A stretch of 64,000 bases of DNA from Methanococcoides sp. AM1 (GCF_900774055.1 NZ_CAAGSW010000002.1:186001-250000), one strand, 5' to 3'; shown: positions 8,616 through 62,797, counted from the stretch's first letter. The notes: generated by a model not told the origin, from the letters alone. Made by a program: numbers and translations.

Positions 8616-9947
8616 GTGTTTCATGTTCCATTGTTTAAATTTGCACATATGCTGGGTGACTATCGTTTCTTATCGATGTACAATTCTGCTGTCAGGTCAC
8701 AATGGTATTCTTATCCTGATCTGAAAAAAGATCAAGAAGCTAAGCTTCGAAACCTGATTTCTTTCTCTTATGAAAATGTTCCTTATTATCACAAATTATT
8801 CAAAGGTTTGAATCTAAGGCCTGAAGATATTAAAACAATAGATGATCTGGAAAAACTCCCTGTTTTGAACAAAGAGATTATCATGGATAATTGGGAAGAT
8901 TTCAAACCAGTTAATCTGAACAAAATGAAATATTATTCTCTGGCCACGGGGGGTTCTACAGGTACTCCCTTCCCATTCAGATTATTAAAACATGATCGTT
9001 TTATGTCAGGAGCAATGCTCTATCGCGGCTGGGGGTATGGAGGCTATGAGCTTGGAGATAAGATGGTATTTCTGGCAGGCATTTCCCTGGGTGTTGATGG
9101 TAACTCACGAACTGTAAGTAAAGTACATGAAATTGCTCGCAATATTCGTAGATTATCTTCTTTTGACATGGGCAACGAAGACATGCACAAATATGCGAAC
9201 ACAATACGTTCATTTAATCCCAAATCAATTCGTGCGTATCCTTCATCCATAGATCTATTCGCATCATTTGTTGAAGATAATAGTATTGATCTGCCTAAAA
9301 TTCCTACGGTCTATACGACTGCAGAAAAACTGTTCCCAAATATGCGTGATCATATCAGTGATGTCTTTGACTGTGAGGTTTATGATGCTTATGGCCTGAA
9401 CGATGGTGGAGTAGGTGCATATGAATGTTCTGAACACAATGGTTTACACATTGATACAGAACGGAGCATCATGGAAGTTGTTGATGATAATGGATCCCAA
9501 ATGTCAGATGGTATTGGAAATATTTTGGCTACAAGTTTACATAACTGTGCCATGCCTTTTATAAGGTATGATACAGGGGATCTGGGCCACATTATCGAAG
9601 ATGAATGTGGTTGTGGCAGAGGGTCGAAACTATTAAAGGAAGTAATTGGTCGCTCGGCTGATATGTTCATTACTCCGGAAGGTAAGCAGGTTCATGGGTA
9701 CTTTTTAATGTATATCTTTTGGCAACATGATGCTGGTATCAAAAAATATCAAGTAATTCAGAAGCAAATAGATAGAATCTTGATAAAACTAGTAGTTGAT
9801 GATAATTTTAATCCAGATAATCTTTCCCTTATTAAGAGTTTAATACAATCTAAATCATCTTCCTGGAATGTAGATTTCGAATTTGTTGATTCGATTAAAA
9901 AAACGAAGGCTGGGAAGTATAAATTCATTGTCAGTGAGTTGAAATAA
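8616..9947 (+). CDS. CapK/phenylacetate-CoA ligase-like protein
   Basis: ANL-superfamily adenylate-forming protein of the CapK subgroup found in capsule loci, 443 residues. The phosphate-binding loop reads LATGGSTGTPFPF, followed by YGLNDGGVGAYECSEHNGLH and the RYDTGDLGHI motif that contacts the nucleotide ribose. The start is a GTG at 8616 with AAGGGGG at 8601-8607 as ribosome binding site. The stop overlaps the next gene (TAATG). In surface-glycan clusters such proteins are thought to activate an acyl or amino acid group added to a sugar. The substrate is not predictable here. Confidence 0.82.
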   Translation: MFHVPLFKFAHMLGDYRFLSMYNSAVRSQWYSYPDLKKDQEAKLRNLISFSYENVPYYHKLFKGLNLRPEDIKTIDDLEKLPVLNKEIIMDNWEDFKPVNLNKMKYYSLATGGSTGTPFPFRLLKHDRFMSGAMLYRGWGYGGYELGDKMVFLAGISLGVDGNSRTVSKVHEIARNIRRLSSFDMGNEDMHKYANTIRSFNPKSIRAYPSSIDLFASFVEDNSIDLPKIPTVYTTAEKLFPNMRDHISDVFDCEVYDAYGLNDGGVGAYECSEHNGLHIDTERSIMEVVDDNGSQMSDGIGNILATSLHNCAMPFIRYDTGDLGHIIEDECGCGRGSKLLKEVIGRSADMFITPEGKQVHGYFLMYIFWQHDAGIKKYQVIQKQIDRILIKLVVDDNFNPDNLSLIKSLIQSKSSSWNVDFEFVDSIKKTKAGKYKFIVSELK

Positions 9948-11116
9948 TGGCACTGAAAAATCTATTGATAATAACTAATAATTTCCCTAATCTTTCTGAT
10001 ACCTACGTTGCTGAGATATTTGTAAAAGAGCAATTAAAATATATCCGCAAATATTTTGAGAATGTTTATGTGATCTCTCCTGTTGCTTATGGCATGGAAT
10101 TTGTTAGAAAGGCGCATTTCGAAGATTACTCTTTTGATAATGTTCATGTTTTTTTTCCCAGGTATTTTAATCTACCTTTTTTTTATAAGTATCGAAAGGA
10201 GTTTTGGGTAAAATTTGAAGCAAATGCGGTTTTTAAGTTATTGAAAAAACAAAATATTAAGTTTGATATAATTCATGCTCATTTCACCTGGCCATCTGGT
10301 GCAGTTGCAGTAGAATTAAAGAAAAAGTTTGGAGTGCCTGTGGTTATCACAGAACATACGTCTATTACATTTCAGAAAGCGATAGATCGAAAAGATCCAA
10401 TATTTATTCATTCATGGCAAATGTCTGATGCAATAATACGTGTTAGACAAGGTGATATCTCTCTTATGGGGGATGTAGGAATTGATCTAGAGAAAGTACA
10501 CCATATTCCAAATGGTTATGACCAAAAAAAGTTTTATCCTTCAGATAAGCAGCTATGTAGGGATAAACTTGGCTTACCAGGAGATAAAAAAATAATTCTC
10601 AATGTTGGGAATTTATATGGTGATGTGAAAGGTCATTCTTATTTGATAGAAGCTATGGAAAAAGTTGTCTCCAGAAAAGATGATGTGTTGTGCTATATTG
10701 TAGGGGATGGTATCCTTAGGGAGAAATTAGAGAAGCAAATCTCATCATCCAATTTACAAAATTATGTGAAAATAGTTGGTATTAAACCACACCATGAAGT
10801 GCCTCTCTGGATGAATGCTTGTGATATATTTGTGTTGCCAAGCTTGAATGAAGGTAATCCAACAGTTCTAGTTGAATGCTTAGGCTGTGGTAAACCATTT
10901 GTAGGAACAAGTGTTGGGGGTGTCCCGGAAATTATAACGTCTGATGATTTTGGATTTCTGGTCAAACCTGGTGATTCCTTTGATCTAGCTGAAAAGATAG
11001 ATCTTTCTTTAGACACAAATTGGGATGGAAATAAAATCATTGATCATGCACAATGCTATAGTTGGGAACACATAGCAGAACAGATTTCGGATATTTATGT
11101 CGGCCTCAACTTATAA
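9947..11116 (+). CDS. Glycosyltransferase, family 4
   Basis: 389-residue GT-B enzyme. The C-terminal domain has NVGNLYGDVKGHSYLIEA, the acceptor/donor region LPSLNEGNPTVLVECLGCGK with the E-x7-E motif that binds the nucleotide sugar, and GTSVGGVPEII. The N-terminal domain has the FDIIHAHFTWPSG block common in GT4 members. No membrane segments. The ATG at 9947 overlaps the preceding TAA. It should add one sugar to the growing glycan on the cytoplasmic face. Confidence 0.88.
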   Translation: MALKNLLIITNNFPNLSDTYVAEIFVKEQLKYIRKYFENVYVISPVAYGMEFVRKAHFEDYSFDNVHVFFPRYFNLPFFYKYRKEFWVKFEANAVFKLLKKQNIKFDIIHAHFTWPSGAVAVELKKKFGVPVVITEHTSITFQKAIDRKDPIFIHSWQMSDAIIRVRQGDISLMGDVGIDLEKVHHIPNGYDQKKFYPSDKQLCRDKLGLPGDKKIILNVGNLYGDVKGHSYLIEAMEKVVSRKDDVLCYIVGDGILREKLEKQISSSNLQNYVKIVGIKPHHEVPLWMNACDIFVLPSLNEGNPTVLVECLGCGKPFVGTSVGGVPEIITSDDFGFLVKPGDSFDLAEKIDLSLDTNWDGNKIIDHAQCYSWEHIAEQISDIYVGLNL

Positions 11117-11230
11117 TGTCTAATTTCTTAGTGCAAATTAATATACTTTCTATAACAAATTATAATTAAGCAAAATCAACTAGATACAATTGAATATCTT
11201 AGAAATATTATATTTGGGGAATGGGTACCT

Positions 11231-13144
11231 ATGAATTTATTAAAATCAATTACAAATCGGGACAAAACTTTAGTTGAAAGATTTGCTCTTAGTTGGCCCT
11301 ATTTGTTAACTGGTGTTATTTTGTTTGGTCTCCTTTTTGCTTTTTGGATAGGGAGGCCTGATTTTGCAATTAGGGGTCTTGTTATAGCAATTCCAGGTAT
11401 AATTGCAGCAAAAGTTCTAACTAAAATGTATAAGAGTGAGGCGAAAGAGGCAAGTCTCAATTTTGCCATGAATTTCGACCAAAAACGCTTATCAATTATT
11501 TTCTTTATTCTTTACGCTTTGAGTTCGATCATTGTAGTGATCTCATCGGTCAGACCATGGTACTATTTCGTAATTATGTCTTTACTTTATACTATCATTC
11601 TTTTTCAAATTCTCTCGAAAGAAGTAAATCAATATCTGGTTTTATCAGAGATAATTTTGTGTATGGTCAATTTAATTTATAGTTTCACTTTAAAGAGTCA
11701 TTTGTATTTTGGTGCCACTGATATATTACCACATCTTTTCATGTCTCAAGTAACCTATTTATCCGGACACACGGTTCCTGAATTTCTAAGTGTTGGTTAT
11801 GCGAAGTTCCCTTTGTTTCATATTTTGATATCACAGGCTTCATATTTGTTAAATTTAGATATAAATGCGACCTATTTTTTGATCAGTCCTCTGATATTCT
11901 CAACTGTAGTTCTTTTTTTGTATTGTATTTTTTTAAATACCACTAAAAACATTAAATTATCTCTGCTTTCAGTTGTTCTATTTTCAACTCTGAGTACAGT
12001 AGTTTATTACGAAATGTATATGATAACCAGGGTTGTAGCATTTATTGCATTTTTATTATTGATGTATTTGATCTATAAGAATTCAGAGAAAAGAGACCCT
12101 CGATTGAAAATATTAGGGATAATTGTTACTATTTTTATAGTACTTGTTCATCAGGTGTCGACCCCTCAAATAATCATTGTAATGGCATTATTTTTTGTCT
12201 CTGAACTTATATTAACGAATTTGACTGGTTTAAAATCTAAATTCCACGATAATAATTATATTTTGTTATTAATTGTAACGTTCTTAGCCTATTGGTTTTA
12301 TGTTGCATATTCATTTATTTTTCTGGCACTGACCTCCAGAGTGGCTTTTGCGTCCACAGAACTTGCAATAAAACAGGACATTAAGGTCGGGTTAGAGTGG
12401 ATATTTATTTCTCAAAATGTTGACACTATGATCGTTTCTCTCTTTGTTTTTGTTGGGATCGGAGCAATTTTTTGGAAGTATGGGAAGAACTATGCTGCAG
12501 TTTTTACTATGGTTTCATTATTTTCTTTACCATTGTATTTGCCAAATCCACTGCAAACTCTCTGGCAAACAATGACCCTCTTTAGATTTGACCGTTTTAT
12601 GTTACTTGTAAGTCCATTTATAGCTTTTTCAATGGCTGCTGGTCTTCTCTTTTGTTACAATTTATTGGCATCAAAGAAGAAAAGGGTCTTATCTGCCGGT
12701 TTAATAATCACAATACTTTTTTCAGGTTTTGTGTATCCATCTTTAACAGGCGGTAGTCCGGAATATGATGAGGTTATTTCCAGTAGAACCTATTTCTATT
12801 CAGATGAGCTAATAGGTTTCGATCATGTTTTCGATTCTGTTCCGGATGATTCAAGGTTATATACAGACTACCCAACTTCAAGACTTTTTGCTAACCGTAA
12901 ATTAAGTGAAACTGACAATCTTGGGATCAAGTATTATAGAATTGTAAACTTCGATGTTTTGAACTTCAATCTCACAAATGGTTATTTTATTTTGAGAAAT
13001 ACTGATCTAGATAGGGGCTTAACATTTGAGCCGACGGTAATTAGGGGCGATAATAGTTTTGAATGGGACAACTTAAGTTCAAATTTGGAAACCAACAATA
13101 AAATTTATTCAAATTCAGCTATTAGTATTTATGGGGCATTTTGA
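11231..13144 (+). CDS. Multispanning membrane protein, GT-C-like
   Basis: 637-residue protein with roughly 12-14 predicted hydrophobic segments in residues 20-510, then a soluble C-terminal part of about 125 residues expected outside the membrane. After several N-terminal segments a loop with GATDILPHLFMSQ is reminiscent of the acidic catalytic loop of GT-C enzymes. FRFDRFMLLVSPF occurs in a later loop. It sits 114 bases after the GT4 gene and overlaps the next gene (TGATG). Its place in the cluster suggests transfer of a lipid-linked sugar or a polymerase role. An O-antigen polymerase-like function is an alternative; no family could be assigned with certainty. Confidence 0.7.
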   Translation: MNLLKSITNRDKTLVERFALSWPYLLTGVILFGLLFAFWIGRPDFAIRGLVIAIPGIIAAKVLTKMYKSEAKEASLNFAMNFDQKRLSIIFFILYALSSIIVVISSVRPWYYFVIMSLLYTIILFQILSKEVNQYLVLSEIILCMVNLIYSFTLKSHLYFGATDILPHLFMSQVTYLSGHTVPEFLSVGYAKFPLFHILISQASYLLNLDINATYFLISPLIFSTVVLFLYCIFLNTTKNIKLSLLSVVLFSTLSTVVYYEMYMITRVVAFIAFLLLMYLIYKNSEKRDPRLKILGIIVTIFIVLVHQVSTPQIIIVMALFFVSELILTNLTGLKSKFHDNNYILLLIVTFLAYWFYVAYSFIFLALTSRVAFASTELAIKQDIKVGLEWIFISQNVDTMIVSLFVFVGIGAIFWKYGKNYAAVFTMVSLFSLPLYLPNPLQTLWQTMTLFRFDRFMLLVSPFIAFSMAAGLLFCYNLLASKKKRVLSAGLIITILFSGFVYPSLTGGSPEYDEVISSRTYFYSDELIGFDHVFDSVPDDSRLYTDYPTSRLFANRKLSETDNLGIKYYRIVNFDVLNFNLTNGYFILRNTDLDRGLTFEPTVIRGDNSFEWDNLSSNLETNNKIYSNSAISIYGAF

Positions 13145-14319
13145 TGAAATATTTAAGGCGGGTGTTTGCAAATGATCAAAACCAAATCTCGAAAAAAGGT
13201 TTGATCATTTTTATGGAGACAAAGGTGTCTTATAGTATCGTTCAATCCTCACGAGCTTTGCATATCTTCCATGAGATCAAAAAACATTTGCCGGATACTT
13301 ATTTAATGTTGCAGAAGAACGAACAGGATGAAGTGGTCTTGGATAATTTAATACAAATAAAACCCATAATACCTATTGGCGGGAAACTCACTTTATTGAA
13401 GGGGATTTTATTTAGACTCCAAATGTCCTTGCAAATATTTCATTTTCTTCTCTCAAAAAAGATCGACTATGTCATCCTGAGGGGCTATGACACCATTATA
13501 TTATTTCCATTTTTAAAAGTATTTGACATAAAGATATATTATGATTTTCACGGAAGAGGTCATCTTGAATTATATCAACAAAAGCGCTTCTTAAGAGGAC
13601 ATGTAGTTAAATGGTCTCAAAAGATTATTTTAAAACATTGTGATAATATAATTGTTGTAAGTGATGGGATAAAATCTCAGATTGAAGAATATGCTTATAA
13701 GTGTATTTATTTGCCAAATGGTGTTGATGTAGACAAAATCAAATCGATCGACTCTGAGTGCCCTGTAAATATTCCGGAAGACAAGAAAGTTATAGGTTTT
13801 ATCGGAAATTGGGAACAGGTAATGAAAATTGAAGATATATGTGATTCAATTGATTATCTGAAAGATGTGGTAGTTGTGATTGTTGGGCAAGGTTACCATT
13901 ACGAGAAAATTTTCAATAAATATGGTCAAAAGCAAAATATAATTTTAACTGGTCGTCTTGAATACAATTTGGCGATATCACTATTGAAACGGATGGATAT
14001 TTGTATTGTTCCTTATGACAAAAACTTCTATATGTCGAAAGTAAAGGATTTTTTCTCGAATAGGAAAATATCCGAATATCTTGCAGCAGGAAAGCCAATG
14101 TTAATTGCAGATATTGAAGGAATTCCCGGATATCTAAAAGAAAATGTCAACTACATAAAATATGAGTCTGGTAATCCTGAAGATCTGGCTAACAATGCAG
14201 ACCATTTAATGAACAATCCGGAGTTGTATTCGAAAATATCTCATAATAACAAAATATTGGCAAAAGAATTTGATTGGGAGCAAATTGTAAAAAAGTCCGG
14301 AATTTTAGAAGATATGTGA
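13144..14319 (+). CDS. Glycosyltransferase, family 4-like
   Basis: 391-residue GT-B protein. Recognisable parts are FYDFHGRGHLE-type N-terminal region, CDNIIVVSDGIKSQI, YLPNGVDVDKI, IGFIGNWEQVMKIED and the donor-binding region KISEYLAAGKPMLIADIEGIP, with the expected Glu. The start is the ATG at 13144, overlapping the preceding TGA; the in-frame TTG three bases earlier is not needed. The residues at the first sugar-binding loop are less conserved than in the 9947 gene. It probably acts after that enzyme in the same glycan. Confidence 0.85.
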   Translation: MKYLRRVFANDQNQISKKGLIIFMETKVSYSIVQSSRALHIFHEIKKHLPDTYLMLQKNEQDEVVLDNLIQIKPIIPIGGKLTLLKGILFRLQMSLQIFHFLLSKKIDYVILRGYDTIILFPFLKVFDIKIYYDFHGRGHLELYQQKRFLRGHVVKWSQKIILKHCDNIIVVSDGIKSQIEEYAYKCIYLPNGVDVDKIKSIDSECPVNIPEDKKVIGFIGNWEQVMKIEDICDSIDYLKDVVVVIVGQGYHYEKIFNKYGQKQNIILTGRLEYNLAISLLKRMDICIVPYDKNFYMSKVKDFFSNRKISEYLAAGKPMLIADIEGIPGYLKENVNYIKYESGNPEDLANNADHLMNNPELYSKISHNNKILAKEFDWEQIVKKSGILEDM

Positions 14320-53493: not shown

Positions 53494-53688
53494 AAAGCAG
53501 CTCCCGGAAGTGTTAAAAGGATCTTATTTTAGATTACTTATATTAATAATATATATCTCATGACCCCTTATAGTATTTTTGAAGTCTTTACGATATTGCC
53601 ATCACTTTTTGCATTCAGAATTCAATATCTGGCATTGGCATAACAATTTGCTTAATAGATGGCTCAAACAAGGTGGGAGGTCCTTAAT

Positions 53689-54516
53689 TTGATCGTTCAG
53701 CAAATATTTGCAAGTGGAATAGCTCATAGTTCATACATTCTTGGTGGAAATAATACTTGTGCAGTGATCGATCCCGGTCGCGATATTGATATTTATATGG
53801 ATGCTGCGGCTCAGATGGGCTGGGGGATAACCCATGTACTTGAAACCCATCTGCATGCAGATTTCATTTCCGGTCACATGGAACTTCTGGAAAGGACAGG
53901 TGCATCATTAGTAGTTCCACGTTCTGCAAATTGCAAATTCGATGCAATGGCGGTCTCAGAAGGGGATTCGTTTGAGATCGAGGATATGATAATAGAGGTT
54001 CTTGAAACTCCGGGGCATACACCTGAACATGTCTCCTACGTGGTGACTGACAGTTCACGCGCTGAGGTTCCTGTATGTGTCTTTTGTGGAGATACCCTTT
54101 TTGTAGGTGATGTTGGCAGGCCTGACCTGTTCCCGGGTAAAGCAGAAGAACTGGCTTCAAAATTATATGATAGTCTTCACGGGAAACTGCTGGAACTGCC
54201 TGATTTTTGTGAGGTATATCCTGCACATGGCGCAGGTTCCCTTTGTGGCAGGGCCATGGCTGCAAAGCGTAGCACGACCATCGGTTATGAAAGGCTTTAC
54301 AATTATGCGTTGAACATAGGTAACCGGGAAAATTTCATCCGTTCACTTACGGAAAATATGCCTGCAACTCCGGACCATTTCAGCAGGTGTAGCGAAGTGA
54401 ACAGGATCGGACCGGAATTGGTCGAAGATCTCCTTCCACTAAAGGCCATACCTTCGGAGGAGTTTCTGGGGCTGCTGGATGATCCTGAAAATATAGTCCT
54501 TGATATGTTGTTATGA
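53689..54516 (+). CDS. Metallo-beta-lactamase part of a frameshifted MBL-rhodanese protein
   Basis: Persulfide dioxygenase-like MBL domain with ETHLHADFISGH (HxHxDH metal site), TPGHTPEHVSY, CGDTLFVGDVGRPDLF and VYPAHGAGSLCG. The start is a TTG at 53689 (IVQQIFASGIAHSSYILGG), 7 bases after GGGAGGT; an ATG at 53659 would place that site inside the gene. The frame stops at 54514-54516 just as the first rhodanese domain begins (IPSEEFLGLLDDPENIVLD). The following frame continues it without a gap, so one base was lost near 54505-54513, or the sequence has an error. Expected role: oxidation or transfer of persulfide sulfur. Confidence 0.8.
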   Translation: MIVQQIFASGIAHSSYILGGNNTCAVIDPGRDIDIYMDAAAQMGWGITHVLETHLHADFISGHMELLERTGASLVVPRSANCKFDAMAVSEGDSFEIEDMIIEVLETPGHTPEHVSYVVTDSSRAEVPVCVFCGDTLFVGDVGRPDLFPGKAEELASKLYDSLHGKLLELPDFCEVYPAHGAGSLCGRAMAAKRSTTIGYERLYNYALNIGNRENFIRSLTENMPATPDHFSRCSEVNRIGPELVEDLLPLKAIPSEEFLGLLDDPENIVLDMLL

Positions 54517-55114
54517 GGCATTCGGTGGCCGTCACATACCGGGTGCATATAGCATTGACCTTAACAGCAACTTTGCTACATTCTCAGGTTGGTTACTCCC
54601 TTCTGATAAGGACATACTGTTGGTGACCGACACTCAGACGAATGCATCGGAAGCTGTGGTCTGGTTGCACAGGGTTGGTCTTGACAGGATAGTCGGATTT
54701 CTTGATGGGGGAATGCACTCATGGTCCATGAAAGGTCTTCCAACAGAACATCTCTGTCAGATTTCGAGCCTTGAACTCGATAACATGGTCAGGGATGATG
54801 AGGATTTTATTCTTGTGGATGTAAGGGCAGTTTCCGAGTTCAACGGAGGGCATATACAAAATGCGATCAACATCCCGGTACACGAGCTCAGGGATTCGTA
54901 TAATGAACTTGATCCCGACGCAAAGACAGTTGTCATTTGCGGAAGCGGACAGCGCTCAAGCATGGGTGCAAGCATACTGCAACAGAAAGGCTTCAGCGAT
55001 GTCCACAATGTTTCCGGCGGGATGACCGGTTACAATGCTGCAGGGTTCGGCCCTGACTGTCCGTTGTGTGCACTTCCGTGGCTACCTTCAGGGAAGGTCA
55101 GGAAGGATAGCTGA
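54500..55114 (+). CDS. Rhodanese part of the frameshifted MBL-rhodanese protein
   Basis: Continues the preceding gene in the next frame from YEAFGGRHIPGAYSIDLNSN. Two rhodanese domains: the first (to about residue 95) has no catalytic Cys visible, and the second has DVRAVSEFNGGHIQNAINIP and the active-site loop CGSGQRSSMGASI with the sulfur-carrying Cys. No ATG or ribosome binding site lies near its 5' end, so it is not an independent gene by appearance. It ends with a CxxC tail (CPLCALPW). If the frameshift is real, the protein is split or lost. Confidence 0.75.
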   Translation: MICCYEAFGGRHIPGAYSIDLNSNFATFSGWLLPSDKDILLVTDTQTNASEAVVWLHRVGLDRIVGFLDGGMHSWSMKGLPTEHLCQISSLELDNMVRDDEDFILVDVRAVSEFNGGHIQNAINIPVHELRDSYNELDPDAKTVVICGSGQRSSMGASILQQKGFSDVHNVSGGMTGYNAAGFGPDCPLCALPWLPSGKVRKDS

Positions 55115-55177: not shown

Positions 55178-58100
55178 TCAGCTTCTCTTTCTCAATACCA
55201 GATAAGCACATCCGAATATTATCATCAATATGGAACTTGATAGCATTGGGAGGGACGTGCTTTCAGACGTTTCTTCTACATTTGATCCCAATGTATCGTT
55301 GCTTATGTCTATATCGATCAATTCCGAACTTCTGTCTGTAACTTCTGCCGTTTGTGGAAAGCCTACAATAGCAAATGGTGAAAATCCAGGTGTTTTGCTC
55401 TCAAAGTAAATGTATTCCGTGTCCTCACTGAGGATAGTGGTAGAAAGCTGTGTCCATTTTTCACCATGGTTTCTGCATAATGTTATTGTCGTTTCATCAA
55501 TATTATTCTCAGCAATCCACGATTTACTGACCCTGAATCCAATAACCGGTTCTGCAATATTGTTCTCAGTTGCAAAACCTGCTTTTCCAACCCAAATGTT
55601 CATGTGTTGATAGGCTATTCCGGGAGGATTCTCTTTAACAAGTGCTGATTTTTCTTTAAGGACTTCAACAGTTGTTGATATCTTTCCTGAGTTCTTCAAT
55701 GCATAGAATCCGATATACTCGATCTTGTCCCCTTCCTCTTCGAATTGGAAGTTGATCTCAGAATCTTTGTTTATATATATGGTCTTTACTTCTTTCAGTA
55801 TAATGTTCTCGAAAGCTTCTCCTGTATTACCGGAACCTCCTCCGGATGAAGATGAACCGCTCTTACTCGGGGTACTGGGGGCCAGAGATACTTCAATTGT
55901 GAAATTAACCATCGATAAACCCGTATTTCCTGCTGAATCGCTTGCGAAGACAGTTACATTGTGTTCTCCATCAGACAGGCTGCTAAGTGTAGTGTTTGGA
56001 GTAAATGTGTTGTTCCCTTCTCCATTGAGATTGTACATCCAGATTGCAACATCCTCATCGGCAAATACATTGAGGCTTACAGTACTTGTATCATATGTTG
56101 TGTTCTGCGGACTTTCGATAGTTACAGTCGGTGTTATCGTATCGATACTGAAACTGATCGCAGCTGATCCGATATTACCAATTGTATCATTGGCGAACAC
56201 TGTTATGTCATATTCTCCTTCAGGCAGGCTGCTAAGTGTAGTGTTTGGAGTAAATGTTTTGTTCCCTTCTCCATTGAGATTGTACATCCAGACCATCACA
56301 TCCTCATCAGCAGATACATTCAGGTTAACGGTATTTGTATCGTATGCTTTGTTCTGAGGACTTTCGATGGTCACACTAGGCGGTGTCGTGTCAATTGTGA
56401 AGTTTGCCATCAATGATGTCATATTACCATTTGTGTCATTGGCAAAAACCGTTATGTTATGGCTACCATCAGGAAGGGGTAGTGTGATGTTTGGAGTAAA
56501 TGTATGGTTGCCGGTTGCATTGATATTGTACATCCATGTATCGACTTCCAGATTTGCAGACACGTTCAGGAAGATCGTACTCGTACTGTAATTGTGGCCT
56601 TCCTCTGGTTCATCCATCGTTATGCTGAATATAGGTCTGTTAAGGACATTAACGGTAGTTGAGTTTGTAATACTTCCATTTGTCACCGTTATTGTGGTGT
56701 TTCCTGTAGTATTTGCAGTGAACAGTCCAGAGATTGCATCGATGGTGCCGACTGTCTGATTCTGTGAGTTCCAAGTAACATTAACATACATTGGATTATT
56801 GTACTGGTCAAGTATCTGATTGCTGAATTGCAGAGTTTCTCCTTCATAGGTCGTTTCATTTAACGGATCCGGTATTATCGCTGCAACATATGAATCCTCA
56901 GTAAATGCCTTGATGCAGATGCTCCTATTTTCAGAATAGGTTGTTATATCGGTCCATGAGTTTCCATTTGGACTGATGTAACCTTCACCTGAATTTGCGG
57001 TTGCTTTGCTGCTGTAACCGGCAATTGGATACTCCACTGGAACAAGGTACGCATAATCCGGGTCACTGAACTTAATTACAACGGAAAAATCCTGATCATG
57101 TTCAAGTTTTATGGGGCTGCTTAGATCGATCGTATGGTATCCTGCGTACTCAAAGGTACCGGATGTGAAATATTCATGTCCTGAGGAGTTAATAGGTCCT
57201 TGATCTGGATCTTTATAGATATACAGTTCATAATCCGTCATCTCATCAGGAGTGTAAAAGCTGACAGCATTCAGATATTCATCTGAATCTGGTGTAAAGA
57301 TGTTAGCTGCCCATGAAACATTGGTGGTATCGTTAGGATATCCGGTACTACTTGTATATCCCAATGGGTCATATTGGTATATGTTATCATAATTATCCAC
57401 ATCTTCTGAACCTACAAAGACTGCCTGGGGTTCAAATGATTCTTCATAGTAGGAGATATAGAAATATCCTTCATCTCCGGGACCGGTGCCCCAACTGTTT
57501 TTACAAATAAACGCTCCATCTCCCAGGGGGGTGATCTCAAAATTTTCCTTTGGATATGAATCATTCCAGCCCACTAAAGCAACTGCATGTCCGCCATCAT
57601 CATAATTTCCATTATAATAGTAGGTCAGATATTTGTCATCAAATCCATCCCAATCGACATCAAAACGAGAATATACTGCACCATGTTCCATGATCGCTTC
57701 TTTTATAAAATCATCAGCATGAGGAGTTACAGCATCCCTTTGTGGAAGAAAAATAGCTTCCTGGACATGTCTTCTCTCAGGTATGCTGGTATCAGAATAA
57801 ATTGATGTGTCGTTATAGGGTTCATCAGATTCATTGACCGGCCCGGTCCATCGGGACAGGTAGGCAAGCGATATCTTATAATTTCCTCCACCATTGGCAT
57901 CCCGGTCAAATCCTTCGGAATAATTCTCAGACAATATATTCTTCATATGATTTTCAGAAAAGTCATAAACACCTTCATCAGGTATCATGCATGATTCAAG
58001 AGATGCATATGTTGCATGTGCCCAGCAACTGCCTGATGTTCCCTGGTCCCGGACCGGAGTTACGTTGTTCTCATCGCGAAGATCGTAGTATGTGGGCAGG

Positions 58101-58447
58101 GTTTCCGCAGATTCAGAGAATAGACCAATTTCATTTGCACTGTATGTATGGCTTTTATCAATATGTGAATTGTCGACCGGGGATGGAATTATGCCATTTA
58201 TGTCATATTTGTCCCTTATTGATCCACCTGCGTTTAGTGAGGATGATCGAACATTGTCATACGAATCCATATTTACTTCCATCTTCTCCACATACTCAAC
58301 GAATTCCGGATTAAGAGGGGCTAGATATAGATCCTGATCTATAGTTTCATTTATTAAAAGTGAATTATTATCTGAAGATGCAGCAATTGAAACATTTGCT
58401 ATACAAAACAATAATATTGTGAGTGTAATCATTCTAACAAATTGCAT
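55178..58447 (-). CDS. Secreted papain-type cysteine protease with Ig-like repeats and PGF-pre-PGF domain
   Basis: 1089 residues. Signal peptide (1-22); propeptide-like region; C1A peptidase (about 118-345) with Cys141 in GTSGSCWAHATY, His287 in DDGGHAVALVG and Asn317 in CKNSWGTG; a lectin-like domain (about 360-515); an Ig-like domain (about 535-605); three Ig-like repeats of 83 residues (about 610-855), the last two nearly identical; a Ser/Gly linker; a PGF-pre-PGF type domain (about 880-1030); and a C-terminal TM helix with RKRS. Many NxT/S sites suggest glycosylation. It is cell-surface anchored, facing outward. It may process surface or matrix proteins. Confidence 0.87.
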   Translation of the reverse strand: MQFVRMITLTILLFCIANVSIAASSDNNSLLINETIDQDLYLAPLNPEFVEYVEKMEVNMDSYDNVRSSSLNAGGSIRDKYDINGIIPSPVDNSHIDKSHTYSANEIGLFSESAETLPTYYDLRDENNVTPVRDQGTSGSCWAHATYASLESCMIPDEGVYDFSENHMKNILSENYSEGFDRDANGGGNYKISLAYLSRWTGPVNESDEPYNDTSIYSDTSIPERRHVQEAIFLPQRDAVTPHADDFIKEAIMEHGAVYSRFDVDWDGFDDKYLTYYYNGNYDDGGHAVALVGWNDSYPKENFEITPLGDGAFICKNSWGTGPGDEGYFYISYYEESFEPQAVFVGSEDVDNYDNIYQYDPLGYTSSTGYPNDTTNVSWAANIFTPDSDEYLNAVSFYTPDEMTDYELYIYKDPDQGPINSSGHEYFTSGTFEYAGYHTIDLSSPIKLEHDQDFSVVIKFSDPDYAYLVPVEYPIAGYSSKATANSGEGYISPNGNSWTDITTYSENRSICIKAFTEDSYVAAIIPDPLNETTYEGETLQFSNQILDQYNNPMYVNVTWNSQNQTVGTIDAISGLFTANTTGNTTITVTNGSITNSTTVNVLNRPIFSITMDEPEEGHNYSTSTIFLNVSANLEVDTWMYNINATGNHTFTPNITLPLPDGSHNITVFANDTNGNMTSLMANFTIDTTPPSVTIESPQNKAYDTNTVNLNVSADEDVMVWMYNLNGEGNKTFTPNTTLSSLPEGEYDITVFANDTIGNIGSAAISFSIDTITPTVTIESPQNTTYDTSTVSLNVFADEDVAIWMYNLNGEGNNTFTPNTTLSSLSDGEHNVTVFASDSAGNTGLSMVNFTIEVSLAPSTPSKSGSSSSGGGSGNTGEAFENIILKEVKTIYINKDSEINFQFEEEGDKIEYIGFYALKNSGKISTTVEVLKEKSALVKENPPGIAYQHMNIWVGKAGFATENNIAEPVIGFRVSKSWIAENNIDETTITLCRNHGEKWTQLSTTILSEDTEYIYFESKTPGFSPFAIVGFPQTAEVTDRSSELIDIDISNDTLGSNVEETSESTSLPMLSSSILMIIFGCAYLVLRKRS
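55940..56640 (-). repeat. Three tandem Ig-like repeats, period 249 bases
   Basis: Within the protease gene, TGCTAAGTGTAGTGTTTGGA recurs at 55981 and 56230, a spacing of 249 bases (83 codons), and the surrounding DNA is highly alike. A third, more divergent copy lies to 56640. Recent unit duplication is likely. Confidence 0.8.
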
Positions 58448-58564: not shown

Positions 58565-58945
58565 TCAAAGGCTATGCTGTGTCAATCCGAATCCGTGATC
58601 CTTGCTCAGGTTTATGCTCTTCGGTCGGTAGAGATCCCCTGCTTTCCAGGAGTTAATGGCATCCTGTACCGTGCCATCAGCGCCTACAAAGATCTCAATA
58701 TCATTTTCGTTCAGCAGGTCAACGATCTTCTGTCCGACCCCTGAACATAGGACAACATCTGCTCCAGATTTTACAAGAAGTTCATGTGGAAGACCTTTCC
58801 CTCCCACATGGACACTTGTATTCTCAATGATCTCAACTTCTTCTGTTTCACTGTCGTAGATCGTGTATGTTGCAGCCTTTCCGAAATGGAGTTCGATGTC
58901 ATCATCCAATCCGCCTTTTTCCGTGCTGGGTATAGCAATTTTCAT
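58565..58945 (-). CDS. NifX/NifB-type cofactor-binding-like protein (second copy)
   Basis: 126 residues of the dinitrogenase iron-molybdenum cofactor binding family: MKIAIPSTEKGGLDDDIELH, HFGKAATYTIYD, HVGGKGLPHELL and VVLCSGVGQKIVDLL. Such small proteins carry Fe-S or Fe-Mo type clusters in nitrogenase assembly, but many archaeal members lie far from nif genes. AAAGGTGAGAAT precedes the ATG. It is the last gene of the six-gene minus-strand operon and is paralogous to the first. Confidence 0.88.
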   Translation of the reverse strand: MKIAIPSTEKGGLDDDIELHFGKAATYTIYDSETEEVEIIENTSVHVGGKGLPHELLVKSGADVVLCSGVGQKIVDLLNENDIEIFVGADGTVQDAINSWKAGDLYRPKSINLSKDHGFGLTQHSL

Positions 58946-59043
58946 ATTCTCACCTTTTCTCTGGAAGAATATGTTCTCATTGTTTGATATACTTCTGCAT
59001 TGTGTACATTTTCAGTCATCCGGAAAGTGTACGATCGGACAAT

Positions 59044-59700
59044 TCAGAGCTTGAAACGTGATCCTGCTTCAATAGGTACAAAAGAGTTTGGGAATCTTGT
59101 TCTGATGGTGGCAATATTCGATGTGCAATGTCCGGCACCTATGAATTCCAGTCCGTTCAGCAGATCATATTCCTGGCTATCATGCAATCCTCCGATGATT
59201 CCACGAACATTCCCTTCGGCTGCTGCTGCTCCTATAATGGCTTCCAACCCCGGATGTGCACAGCCTGTAATAACATATATCCCGGTGTCTGTTTTGAGCA
59301 TTAGTGACTGCTCTTTCGGGCTATTCCCGAGTTCACCTGTAGAAAAGACGTTGTTGCATATTCTGGATCTTTCGGTGATCTCGTGCAAAGTAGAATGAGA
59401 TGCTATTTCATTTTTAAGTTTCTCGGAAAATGATGCAGGGATGTAGACATCAATATCACTGTTAGCATTCAGTATTTCCGGAATTCCGCCGATATGGTCC
59501 CAGTGCTGGTGGGAAAGTACAAGAATATCGATATCCTCGACCGGGATGTTAAGTGCTGAAAGATTGCTCTGTAATGCACAACCGTCCCACCCGGTGTCAA
59601 ACAGTATTTTCCTGTCTTCAGTTTTGATATAACAGGAAAATCCCCAGCCCTTTTTGAGACCAGGTTTTGCTTCATTGTCATAGACGATGGTAATTTCCAT
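59044..59700 (-). CDS. Metallo-beta-lactamase fold protein, methanopterin-pathway-like
   Basis: About 218 residues. Metal motif LSHQHWDHIGGIPEIL (HxHxDH), third His in TGCAHPGLEAI, and GAGHCTSNIATIRTRFPNSF near the end. It resembles the archaeal MBL proteins annotated as 7,8-dihydropterin-6-methyl-4-(beta-D-ribofuranosyl)aminobenzene-phosphate synthase-like, but the exact reaction is uncertain. ATG at 59700 overlaps the DUF1847 stop (TGATG) and follows GGAGAAG. It is fifth in the NifX-MinD-DUF1847 operon. Confidence 0.82.
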   Translation of the reverse strand: MEITIVYDNEAKPGLKKGWGFSCYIKTEDRKILFDTGWDGCALQSNLSALNIPVEDIDILVLSHQHWDHIGGIPEILNANSDIDVYIPASFSEKLKNEIASHSTLHEITERSRICNNVFSTGELGNSPKEQSLMLKTDTGIYVITGCAHPGLEAIIGAAAAEGNVRGIIGGLHDSQEYDLLNGLEFIGAGHCTSNIATIRTRFPNSFVPIEAGSRFKL

Positions 59701-60272
59701 CACATCTTCTCCACGCCGAAACGGTTCTTCAGGTAATATCCGGAATAAAGTGCTCCTGCAGGATTATGTGTTAGTACCCTGTCCTTCACAATGAATGTAG
59801 TAACAGGTGCTTCTGAATACTTGTTGAACATTATGTCATGGCCCATGCAGAGCCCGACTATGATGTTAAGTTCGGTACCTGCTCTGTTGAGCATCATTGC
59901 CTGTGCAATGGGGTTGCAGGTAGTTTCCCTTCCGTCCCTTATCTTATCCAGTCCGTATTTTTCCTTGTCTACGCCACATATCTTGCAGCATACGGACTCT
60001 ACGATAAAGTCTTTCTCAAGTATCTTACAAAAGGTCCTTGCCTCATTCTCAAGGCCCACACAAAAAGCGACACCTAGCTTTCGGTATCCCAGTTCCTTTG
60101 CAAAAAGGACCAGCTCTTCAAGCCTTGTCTTTTGCATGTAGAAGTTCGCCTCTATCTTTGAAGCGGCCTTCATCATCTCGAGGTCTTCTGAAGTATATTC
60201 CGGTTGTACTTCTCTTGGAGTACAATCTTTTCCCTGCCTGCATCTTCTTGTATCACAGGATGCACATTTCAT
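59700..60272 (-). CDS. DUF1847 cysteine-rich protein
   Basis: 190 residues of DUF1847. The N-terminus is a Cys cluster, KCASCDTRRCRQGKDC, and further Cys are found in VCCKICGVDKEKYG and TTCNPIAQAMMLN. LGYRKLGVAFCVGLENEART and IVGLCMGHDIMFNKYSEAP are the main family blocks. The arrangement suggests a bound Fe-S cluster or metal. Function is unknown. Fourth in the six-gene operon, 26 bases after the second MinD-like ATPase. Confidence 0.87.
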   Translation of the reverse strand: MKCASCDTRRCRQGKDCTPREVQPEYTSEDLEMMKAASKIEANFYMQKTRLEELVLFAKELGYRKLGVAFCVGLENEARTFCKILEKDFIVESVCCKICGVDKEKYGLDKIRDGRETTCNPIAQAMMLNRAGTELNIIVGLCMGHDIMFNKYSEAPVTTFIVKDRVLTHNPAGALYSGYYLKNRFGVEKM

Positions 60273-60298
60273 GACCTGTTCACCTCTTAAACGTTAAT

Positions 60299-61180
60299 TT
60301 ATTTTCCGGATCCCGGATCTTCACAGAGCTCTGTCCTCACAATTTTCCAGATTTCCCTGAGATTTTTTGAGAACCCATTGTCTGCATATTCAATGACAGT
60401 CTTTTTTCCGATCATCGCTTTGTTCGGGATCGTGTCATATGGAAGCTTTCCTGCTACCACTATGCCATTCTCCTTGCAGGAACTTTCGATCTGCTTTGTG
60501 TTCCCTTCATTGATGTTATATTTATTAATACAGACGATTGCCGGTATCCTGAAGTGGTCAGTTACCTGTATGATCCTTTCGAGATCGTGTATTCCGGACA
60601 AGCTTGGTTCTGTTACAATGAGGGCAAGGTCTGCACCTGTAATGGCTGCTATTACGGGGCATCCGGTTCCTGGGGGTCCGTCACATATTATTAGCTCGGC
60701 TCCATTTTCATTGGCAAGTGATGCTGCATGTTCTTTTACTGCAGTGACCAATTTGCCACTTGCTTCTTCTCCGATCATGAGCTCTGCATGTACCATTGGA
60801 CCATATCTGGTCATGGAATCAAAGACACTTCCAGAGGGGTTATTTATCATTTTGATGGCATTTTCAGGGCAAATATATTCACATACCCCACAACCTTCGC
60901 ATTTGCAATTGTTTATGGTATGGTCTGTATATATAGCATCGAAATTGCAATTCTCGATACATATGTTGCATCCGATACATTTTTCAGTATCGATATGTGC
61001 AATGTCCATTCCGTAAAAGTCGGAGGTCTCTATTATCTCAGGCCCCAGGACCAGATGCAGGTTCGGGGCATCAACATCACAGTCTGCGATTATGGCCTTC
61101 TCTGCCATTGATGCAATTGCAGCGGTGATAGTAGTCTTCCCTGTTCCGCCTTTTCCGCTGATGATGACAAGTTGCTTCAT
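60299..61180 (-). CDS. MinD-type ATPase with ferredoxin insert (copy 2)
   Basis: 293 residues from MKQLVIISGKGGTGKTTITA, the deviant Walker A motif of the MinD/Mrp group, then ADCDVDAPNLHLVLG, two 4Fe-4S motifs (CIGCNICIENC and CEGCGVCEYICPENAI) inserted at about 65-115, ICDGPPGTGCPVIAAI and a C-terminal switch region VTEPSLSGIHDLERI. Such proteins probably load or move a metal or cluster with ATP. The start at 61180 overlaps the previous stop (ATGA); an in-frame extension to 61246 is inside the neighbour. Confidence 0.92.
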   Translation of the reverse strand: MKQLVIISGKGGTGKTTITAAIASMAEKAIIADCDVDAPNLHLVLGPEIIETSDFYGMDIAHIDTEKCIGCNICIENCNFDAIYTDHTINNCKCEGCGVCEYICPENAIKMINNPSGSVFDSMTRYGPMVHAELMIGEEASGKLVTAVKEHAASLANENGAELIICDGPPGTGCPVIAAITGADLALIVTEPSLSGIHDLERIIQVTDHFRIPAIVCINKYNINEGNTKQIESSCKENGIVVAGKLPYDTIPNKAMIGKKTVIEYADNGFSKNLREIWKIVRTELCEDPGSGK

Positions 61181-62034
61181 GCTTCTATCTCCCTGCCATA
61201 TCTGTTCTGGATCGAGCTGTAGAGTCTTATGAACTTCTCTTTCCAATGTCCCATTTCCTGCACAAATGGTATCCCTTCTGAATACAATTGCGCGATCTTT
61301 GTGTCATTGGGTACCTTCATAAGTATCTCGATATTTTCCTTCATGCAATATTCTTCAACACTATCATCACCGCTACCACTTCGGTTGATGATGATCCCGT
61401 GTGGGATCCCAAGTGTTCGGACTACTTCCACCGCCAGCTTCAGGTCATGCAATCCAAAAGGGGTGGGTTCTGTAACAAGGACGCAGTAGTCAACATCCTC
61501 AAGTGTTGTCAGGACCGGGCACGCAGTACCTGGTGGTGCGTCAATGATGGCTGTCCTACCCAGGTCGATGTTCTTCTTGAGCTCACTGATCACGGGTGAT
61601 GCCATGGTCTGGCCGATATCCAGTAATCCTTCGTAGAGTTCAGGTCCTTTCTTATCTCCTCTGGAACTTTTCCGGATGATCCCTGTGACGATCTCGTGTT
61701 CCTGTATGGCTCCTTCAGGACAGACCATCATGCATCCTCCGCAGCTGTGGCATAATGTTGGGAATGTCAGGATCTTGTTCGGAAGGGTTGCGATCGCGTT
61801 GAAACGACAGGAGTCAGAACATTTCTTACAATATGTGCAGTTCTCTTCCACAATTTCGGGGATCATGGATGTTACTTCTGTGAGCTGCTCCAGTTCCTTA
61901 TTGAGGAACAGATTGCAGTTCGGTTCTTCAACATCGCAGTCGAAAAGCTGTACATCCTGAAGTGAAAGGGCAAGGTTCACAGCGATGGTGGTCTTGCCGG
62001 TCCCTCCTTTTCCGCTTGCTATTGCGATCTTCAT
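61177..62034 (-). CDS. MinD-type ATPase with ferredoxin insert (copy 1)
   Basis: 285 residues, paralogue of the next gene: IASGKGGTGKTTIAVNLAL, FDCDVEEPNCNLFL, two 4Fe-4S motifs (CTYCKKCSDSC and CHSCGGCMMVCPEGAI), IDAPPGTACPVLTTL and VTEPTPFGLHDLKLAV. The pair probably forms a heterodimer. The first NifX-like gene ends 8 bases upstream, and the two MinD genes overlap by 4 bases, all signs of tight coupling. Confidence 0.92.
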   Translation of the reverse strand: MKIAIASGKGGTGKTTIAVNLALSLQDVQLFDCDVEEPNCNLFLNKELEQLTEVTSMIPEIVEENCTYCKKCSDSCRFNAIATLPNKILTFPTLCHSCGGCMMVCPEGAIQEHEIVTGIIRKSSRGDKKGPELYEGLLDIGQTMASPVISELKKNIDLGRTAIIDAPPGTACPVLTTLEDVDYCVLVTEPTPFGLHDLKLAVEVVRTLGIPHGIIINRSGSGDDSVEEYCMKENIEILMKVPNDTKIAQLYSEGIPFVQEMGHWKEKFIRLYSSIQNRYGREIEA

Positions 62035-62042
62035 GATATCAT

Positions 62043-62420
62043 TCAGTGTTGGTGATCATGGTCGTGATCGTGTCCCTGACAGACGTTCTCACTGTTTGGA
62101 CTTGCAAGGTTGCCTTCTTTCCAGTCGGATATGGCTTTTTCTATCGTTCCCTGTGCTCCAACGAATACCTCTATCCCATAGTTAGAGAACATGGTAACAG
62201 CTTTTGTTCCAAGTCCGCCGCAAAGCATTACATTGACACCTGCTTTCGATAGTAGCTCAGGTGGCAGTCCAACGCCTCCGTTGTGCTCGCTCGTGTTCTC
62301 TACGATCTGAACCTCATCAGTCTCTGTATCAAGTACAGTATAGACAGGAACCATTCCAAAGTGCTGTCCGACATTATCTTCTAATCCGCCATTTTTTGCA
62401 GAAGGTACGCATACTTTCAT
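62043..62420 (-). CDS. NifX/NifB-type cofactor-binding-like protein with His-rich tail
   Basis: About 125 residues, the operon's first gene. It shares VCVPSAKNGGLEDNVGQHFG, EHNGGVGLPPELLSKAG and MLCGGLGTKAVTMF with the second copy. The C-terminus is GHDHDHDHQH, a metal-binding tail absent from the paralogue. The start at 62420 follows GAGAGGT; a longer frame to 62465 is not conserved. TATA-like CTTTAAATAC near 62474-62485 would drive the operon. Nickel, iron or molybdenum handling is inferred only. Confidence 0.87.
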   Translation of the reverse strand: MKVCVPSAKNGGLEDNVGQHFGMVPVYTVLDTETDEVQIVENTSEHNGGVGLPPELLSKAGVNVMLCGGLGTKAVTMFSNYGIEVFVGAQGTIEKAISDWKEGNLASPNSENVCQGHDHDHDHQH

Positions 62421-62797
62421 CTTTTTACCTCTCGTATATCTTTGATTTTGATTTATTATGCTCATATACGATGAAGTATTTAAAGTTAATGGGAAACCTT
62501 GATATATTTACTCTCGTTTGTGCATTTTAATCTTTGAGAGGTTCAATAGGAAGCCAACAAAATTTCCTTTGATCTGGCGCATTTAAGTTATTTGGATAAG
62601 GTTGGATGCTGAAGATAGTCTTTTTTGATTTTGAATACTACAGATCAAAATTGAATGAATACTGGACAAGCTCAGGGTGAAGTTCTGAACTGAATAAAAT
62701 CAGTACGGACTTGACTCCAATCAGAATAAGTTAGGACTGGATGAAGTTCAGATATTAAATGAATTAAAAAAAGAAATTAAAGAAAAAAGAATTGGAC
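62421..62797. other. Intergenic region between the NifX operon and mtbA
   Basis: No gene seen. It holds the promoter of the NifX operon (TATA-like at 62474-62485, minus strand) and the 3' end signal of mtbA. Bases 62640-62760 carry loosely repeated GAAGTTC and GGACT words without a clear structure. Confidence 0.6.

Follow-up and report, generated by a model that had tools for sequence, protein, structure and literature searches.

The closest described system is the Orange Protein (ORP) complex of Desulfovibrio, which, as far as it is cited in a later paper, is encoded with adjacent MinD-type ATPases of two [4Fe-4S] motifs each, beside NifX-domain genes (Fievet et al. 2011, cited in PMC6345978). 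Orp3 of D. vulgaris is recovered together with Orp4 and Orp8 as a complex with Fe-S absorption, MrpORP can load clusters into this complex, and Orp8 is a homolog of the Mo-Cu protein (PMC6345978). Such joint purification is on record for Desulfovibrio only. The NifX domain is also found in IssA, the thioferrate storage protein of Pyrococcus furiosus (PMC5524996), homologs of which are reported from most type II methanogens (PMC8351635). A published link to the D. vulgaris ORP genes exists for AF2378-AF2380 of A. fulgidus, genes with NifX and CbiA domains, for which the authors suggested a role in molybdopterin enzymes; in the accessible text of that paper neither DUF1847 nor an MBL gene is seen alongside them (PMC3949148).

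The window analysed here, the whole stretch of 64,000 nucleotides from Methanococcoides sp. AM1, carries a six-gene operon (Table 1) that has the ATPase pair and NifX genes of the Desulfovibrio complex and adds to them DUF1847 and MBL genes. On balance it is probable that this operon is an archaeal ORP-type module for iron-sulfur trafficking, serving Fe-S homeostasis in an anaerobe and not the synthesis of nitrogenase cofactor. The preliminary description had seen in it a dedicated metal or cluster machine; the handling of metal or clusters without a nitrogenase client stands, whilst the idea of an isolated six-gene set does not, as the core is a known ORP-type module. An orphan methanogen operon, with a distribution independent of nitrogenase, is now tied to a biochemically studied bacterial complex. 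The storage and distribution of iron and sulfide in anaerobes, which need both in large amounts, is poorly known.

Table 1. Features of the operon and its leader, in window coordinates.
Feature	Position	Strand	Evidence
NifX1, Nitro_FeMo-Co domain, cysteine-type (LCGGLG), Cys/His tail CQGHDHDHDHQH	62043..62420	-	PF02579 E 2.5e-19
MinDA, MinD-type P-loop ATPase, inserted 2x[4Fe-4S] ferredoxin domain, switch II Cys172 (DAPPGTACP)	61177..62034	-	Pfam, alignment, AF2
MinDB, second MinD-type ATPase, 2x[4Fe-4S] insert, switch II Cys (DGPPGTGCP)	60299..61180	-	Pfam
DUF1847 (PF08901) protein	59700..60272	-	PF08901 E 3e-53
MBL-fold protein, intact HxHxDH metal motif	59044..59703	-	PF00753
NifX2, cysteine-type, genus-restricted, without His tail	58565..58945	-	PF02579 E 3e-19
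Conserved leader/promoter region, TTTAAATA box and inverted repeat 5' of ribosome-binding site	62421..62560	-	upstream alignment, five genomes

The ORF coordinates and Pfam matches bear out six same-strand genes of the families first assigned to them. The genes are tightly packed as was claimed, with four of the five junctions overlapping or no longer than 26 bp; from NifX1 to NifX2 they measure 8 bp, a 4-bp overlap (MinDB starting with the ATG at 61180), 26 bp, a further 4-bp overlap (MBL starting with GTG) and 98 bp. As NifX2 starts 98 bp past the MBL gene, it is a putative member of the same transcript. In the leader an inverted repeat, TCGTATAT/ATATACGA (62432-62439 and 62464-62471), was spotted by eye just 5' of the NifX1 ribosome-binding site and is kept in three (G032, G041, G252) of the four congeneric genomes aligned with it; it is possibly an operator or an RNA hairpin. 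Upstream of the operon, across a 377-bp gap that holds the conserved leader, lies mtbA (NCBIfam MtbA), and the same-strand genes beyond it, outside the window, are read as pylD, pylC, pylB and pylS (look-alikes of the four, at 10037-14217 of locus L006, immediately precede mtbA and the operon). The mtbA and pyl genes indicate that the host, with a genome of 2.48 Mb that is 99.9% complete, is a methylotrophic methanogen.

When the D. gigas ORP sequence from the solved structure 2wfb was used as a query over 84,980 genomes, 39 loci were found, mostly in Desulfovibrio relatives and other deltaproteobacteria, 37 of them with both ATPases. The archaeal MinDA and MinDB profiles match adjacent genes in the same order at these bacterial loci, at 248-402 bits (mostly 250-400), the comparison being with loci found with D. 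gigas ORP. The bacterial pair is flanked by NifX genes, with Mrp present too at 23 of the 37 loci; at the locus of the closest homolog of D. gigas ORP (L097, 93% identical) MinDA (289 bits) and MinDB (343 bits) follow directly, and Desulfovibrio cuneatus (L103) and its relatives have the order NifX-MinDA-MinDB-NifX. NifX is present with the MinDA-MinDB pair at 38 of the 41 archaeal and all 37 bacterial loci examined that have the pair, and the gene order of the core is conserved across two domains of life. As the bacterial loci were found via D. gigas ORP, they identify the core with the ORP-complex module of Desulfovibrio (Orp3/Orp4/Orp8); judged by these matches, the NifX-MinDA-MinDB core is already known and is the archaeal version of that module, a membership that on the same grounds holds for the ATPase pair and NifX. 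Ancient transfer of an ORP-type gene cluster between D. vulgaris and Methanosarcina was reportedly described in 2007.

There are differences between the two systems. The window locus is without Mrp and DUF134, which are found side by side elsewhere in the genome (locus C2:300 kb), and the window NifX proteins are of the cysteine type whereas D. gigas ORP does not have that cysteine. An Mrp-NifX fusion of the MrpORP kind is absent, the best match being the separate Mrp beside DUF134 (G000:C2:300221-300973, 364 bits against a cut-off of 450), and the window cluster has two single-domain NifX proteins. A published function for the whole set, which would have spoken against the first description, is available in part, in the Fe-S complex of Orp3/Orp4/Orp8 (PMC6345978); for DUF1847 and its MBL partner no described function was found in the literature searched, where DUF1847 and the COG numbers are mentioned in no paper.

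Both ATPases have an intact P-loop and eight invariant ferredoxin cysteines. All of C66, C69, C72, C76, C95, C98, C101, C105 and C172 are invariant in the MinDA alignment (45 rows), MinDB conservation was scored over 60 archaeal and bacterial sequences, and the cysteine of the switch II motif D-x-P-P-G-T-x-C-P is invariant in 58 of 58 MinDA and 60 of 60 MinDB proteins. The AF2 model of MinDA (pLDDT 93) has a MinD/ApbC-like fold, and the deviant Walker P-loop fold is common to this pair, Mrp/ApbC/Nbp35 and NifH; unlike in those ATPases, the clusters of MinDA and MinDB are in an inserted ferredoxin domain, and the switch II position has Asp in Mrp but Cys in MinDA and MinDB. The MinD fold of MinDA, together with a published hypothesis for ORP in Desulfovibrio (PMC4672049), would allow a cell-division or positioning complex, with the MinD-like pair acting in Z-ring or chromosome placement. 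This is very unlikely, with curated MinD models giving 63 bits, far below the family cut-offs of 201.75-212.9, with ferredoxin inserts in the ATPases and with metal and Fe-S genes as the recurrent neighbours.

The switch II cysteine falls on NifH Cys132 in two of three MAFFT alignment methods, applied with the ferredoxin insert removed, and on NifH Cys97 in the third; profile alignment of the ATPases with NifH yields end pieces only, so the equivalence rests on the MAFFT alignments, from which the residue probably occupies the Cys132 position. As no conserved cysteine was seen in the NifH Cys97 region of the MinDA and MinDB alignments, the pair need not have a complete bridging cluster of the NifH type; the interface of MinDA and MinDB may hold a two-cysteine site. 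It may tentatively be proposed that the pair is a NifH-like heterodimer whose switch II cysteines form or bind an interface metal or Fe-S site, and that ATP-driven closure passes Fe-S units from NifX to DUF1847 or back, DUF1847 then being an undescribed Fe-S protein, although this is on the unlikely side; if true, DUF1847-MBL would give the archaeal ORP system a new functional arm.

In the Fe-S trafficking module as a whole, MinDA and MinDB would pair as a heterodimeric ATPase. Its binding and hydrolysis of ATP, with electrons passing via the ferredoxin domains, would gate the assembly of a thioferrate-like Fe-S unit or its hand-over to or from NifX, which would bind or store it. From their linkage, DUF1847, which has a four-cysteine motif and a set of three further cysteines, may act as an additional subunit that binds metal or clusters, with the MBL protein as its partner hydrolase.

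The nearest solved structure to NifX1 is 1t3v/1o13 (E 5e-14). The His-rich tail on NifX1 and its absence from NifX2 are as first described, and the tail is not peculiar to NifX1, the homolog 1t3v ending in HDHHHHEH. Both window proteins differ from IssA, which has a long cationic Gly/aromatic tail where that of NifX1 is short and rich in Cys/His and NifX2 has none. In a tree of 84 NifX proteins, built from few columns and with many open forks, 37 proteins without the LCGGLG cysteine, often Gly/Arg-tailed, are set apart (support 92/96), the remaining side including all the cysteine-type proteins, which often have a Cys/His tail. Archaeal core loci with two NifX genes mostly have one cysteine-type protein and one from the other, often Gly/Arg-tailed side. 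The NifX2 clade (100/100) is confined to the genus of the host (g1) and tail-less, and judged by the tree NifX1 and NifX2 are paralogs that are paired only in this genus. The suggestion of separate steps for the two copies loses weight at this locus, where both are cysteine-type, such a pair being found in the genus only.

The Gly/Arg-tailed type, the usual second NifX, is present at another locus of the host genome (C3, L005), with a tail unlike those in the window. It holds two DUF169 genes, this NifX, an Fsr-like sulfite-reductase protein of 642 aa, a cation-efflux protein with a fused NifX domain and a further set of MinDA, CGGC protein and MinDB. The fusion (G000:C3, 8157-9440 of L005) is a cation-diffusion-facilitator (CDF) transporter with a C-terminal NifX domain; similar CDF-NifX fusions are found in L061 and L154 and CDF-like matches in L151 and L115.

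The heterometal on D. gigas ORP is Mo-Cu, which counts against an Fe-S cargo. The NifX proteins could instead carry a thiomolybdate-type cluster as D. gigas ORP does, with the ATPases loading or detoxifying the cluster, as the Mo-Cu ORP belongs to the NifX family (2wfb and NifX1 match with E 2e-6) and the Orp8 of D. vulgaris is a homolog of that protein (PMC6345978). Such Mo/Cu handling is unlikely for proteins of the cysteine type, that cysteine being absent from D. gigas ORP, and no recurring Mo or Cu gene was seen beside the core, where FeoB and an EncFtn-like protein are seen instead.

The genes around the archaeal core speak for iron and sulfur. A FeoB gene lies close to 5 of 41 archaeal core loci, as against none of 39 loci with DUF1847 only; Mrp is near 20 against 6, and DtxR/MntR-type regulators are near 15 against 1, in about eight independent contexts, with some of the DtxR-type matches lying beside look-alikes of ABC metal transporters and not beside iron genes. 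An EncFtn/rubrerythrin-like (encapsulated-ferritin-like) protein adjoins the operon in genus g3, and DUF364 heavy-metal-chelation and CDF-NifX proteins are among the core-locus neighbours. Neither FeoB nor DtxR was found at the bacterial ORP loci, and the stretch covered at the window locus has no iron gene. In M. voltae the NifX-domain proteins Mvol_0689 and Mvol_0693 are up together with FeoB and DtxR on FeS2 (PMC8516115); as their locus tags are close in number, the two may lie on either side of an ATPase pair of this kind.

Some neighbours could also be taken to mean that the module is dedicated to the maturation of one metalloenzyme, such as an Fsr-like sulfite reductase or the methylamine-pathway Fe-S protein PylB. 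In L042 and L043 an Fsr-like gene is part of the operon, and one is also present at the second locus L005; pylSBCD-mtbA is directly upstream in the genus and in part of g3. A single client of this kind is nonetheless quite unlikely, as Fsr-like genes are near just 4 of 41 archaeal and none of 37 bacterial core loci, the pyl adjacency is missing in the other lineages mapped and most core loci are already without Fsr-like or pyl neighbours.

No nitrogenase gene had been seen nearby, and this extends to the whole genome, which gives only weak matches (PF00148, E 2e-17; NifH model, 337 bits against 394). These are presumably the CfbD and CfbC proteins of F430 synthesis. The name of the NifX domain, and a switch II cysteine at a NifH-like position, might suggest machinery for carrying a FeMo-cofactor of the nitrogenase type, retained after nitrogenase was lost, but this is extremely improbable and is largely refuted by distribution. 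Within the family 16 of the 36 MinDA-bearing genomes are without a strong NifDK match and four NifDK-bearing genomes are without MinDA (Fisher p 0.69), so that presence does not track nitrogenase and nitrogenase was rejected as the general client of the Fe-S trafficking module.

The order of the genes was surveyed in 60 archaeal DUF1847 neighbourhoods. All six are in order in four of the five other sampled genomes of the genus (L037, L038, L039, L041); at the fifth locus (L040, genome G207) there is no MinDA and MinDB comes directly after NifX (9354-9459), the same genome having MinDA matches at other sites. It can be said from this retention in relatives that the arrangement is not chance. 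Genera g3 and g4 have the order NifX-NifX-(Fsr-like)-MinDA-MinDB-DUF1847-MBL, families f14 and f18 have NifX-MinDA-(DUF364)-MinDB-(ArsP_2-type membrane protein)-MBL-radical SAM-DUF1847, and in genus g5 the DUF1847-MBL pair is alone, with MinDA-MinDB elsewhere (L136, L155). The loci L046-L054 of g5, which have the pair without the MinD core, are mostly beside DUF169. DUF1847 and MBL, standing alone in g5, are a separable pair that joins the NifX-MinDA-MinDB core in some archaea only. Among 295 genomes of the phylum, 87 have DUF1847, 167 have MinDA (E <= 1e-40) and 80 have both (Fisher p 4e-17, kinship ignored); of the seven with DUF1847 and without MinDA, four are <=85% complete. DUF1847 is found in 4 of the 22 genomes behind the bacterial ORP loci.

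DUF1847 and MBL are the part worth testing, and the invariant switch II cysteine is likewise directly testable, in the genetically tractable Methanosarcina. The DUF1847 alignment has an N-terminal four-cysteine motif (C3, C6, C11, C17) and further invariant cysteines at C71, C96 and C119. The AF2 model (pLDDT 93) is an alpha/beta domain, in which C71 and C96 are just past strands 65-70 and 90-95, C119 is just ahead of helix 121-130, and C142, conserved in 83%, is just past strand 135-139. From the model we infer a second metal site, as these four cysteines would share an edge of the sheet. No solved relatives of DUF1847 were found by sequence and no viral relatives were found; the fold search gave non-significant alpha/beta matches only (best E 6e-3), the [4Fe-4S] enzyme Dph2 among them being a lead only. 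The MBL protein has 7dck as its best solved relative (E 1e-34), and its conserved residues are H65, H67, D69, H70, H150, H174 and H192.

Adjoining the operon, at 55178-58447, is a gene for a predicted surface protein of 1089 aa that is papain-type protease-like with repeats, and a comparable large gene comes after the operon in L037 and L038. At 53659-55114 an MBL-rhodanese gene is present as two overlapping ORFs, the equivalent in L038 and L039 being a single ORF of 485 aa; this may be a frameshift, a sequencing error or a real split.
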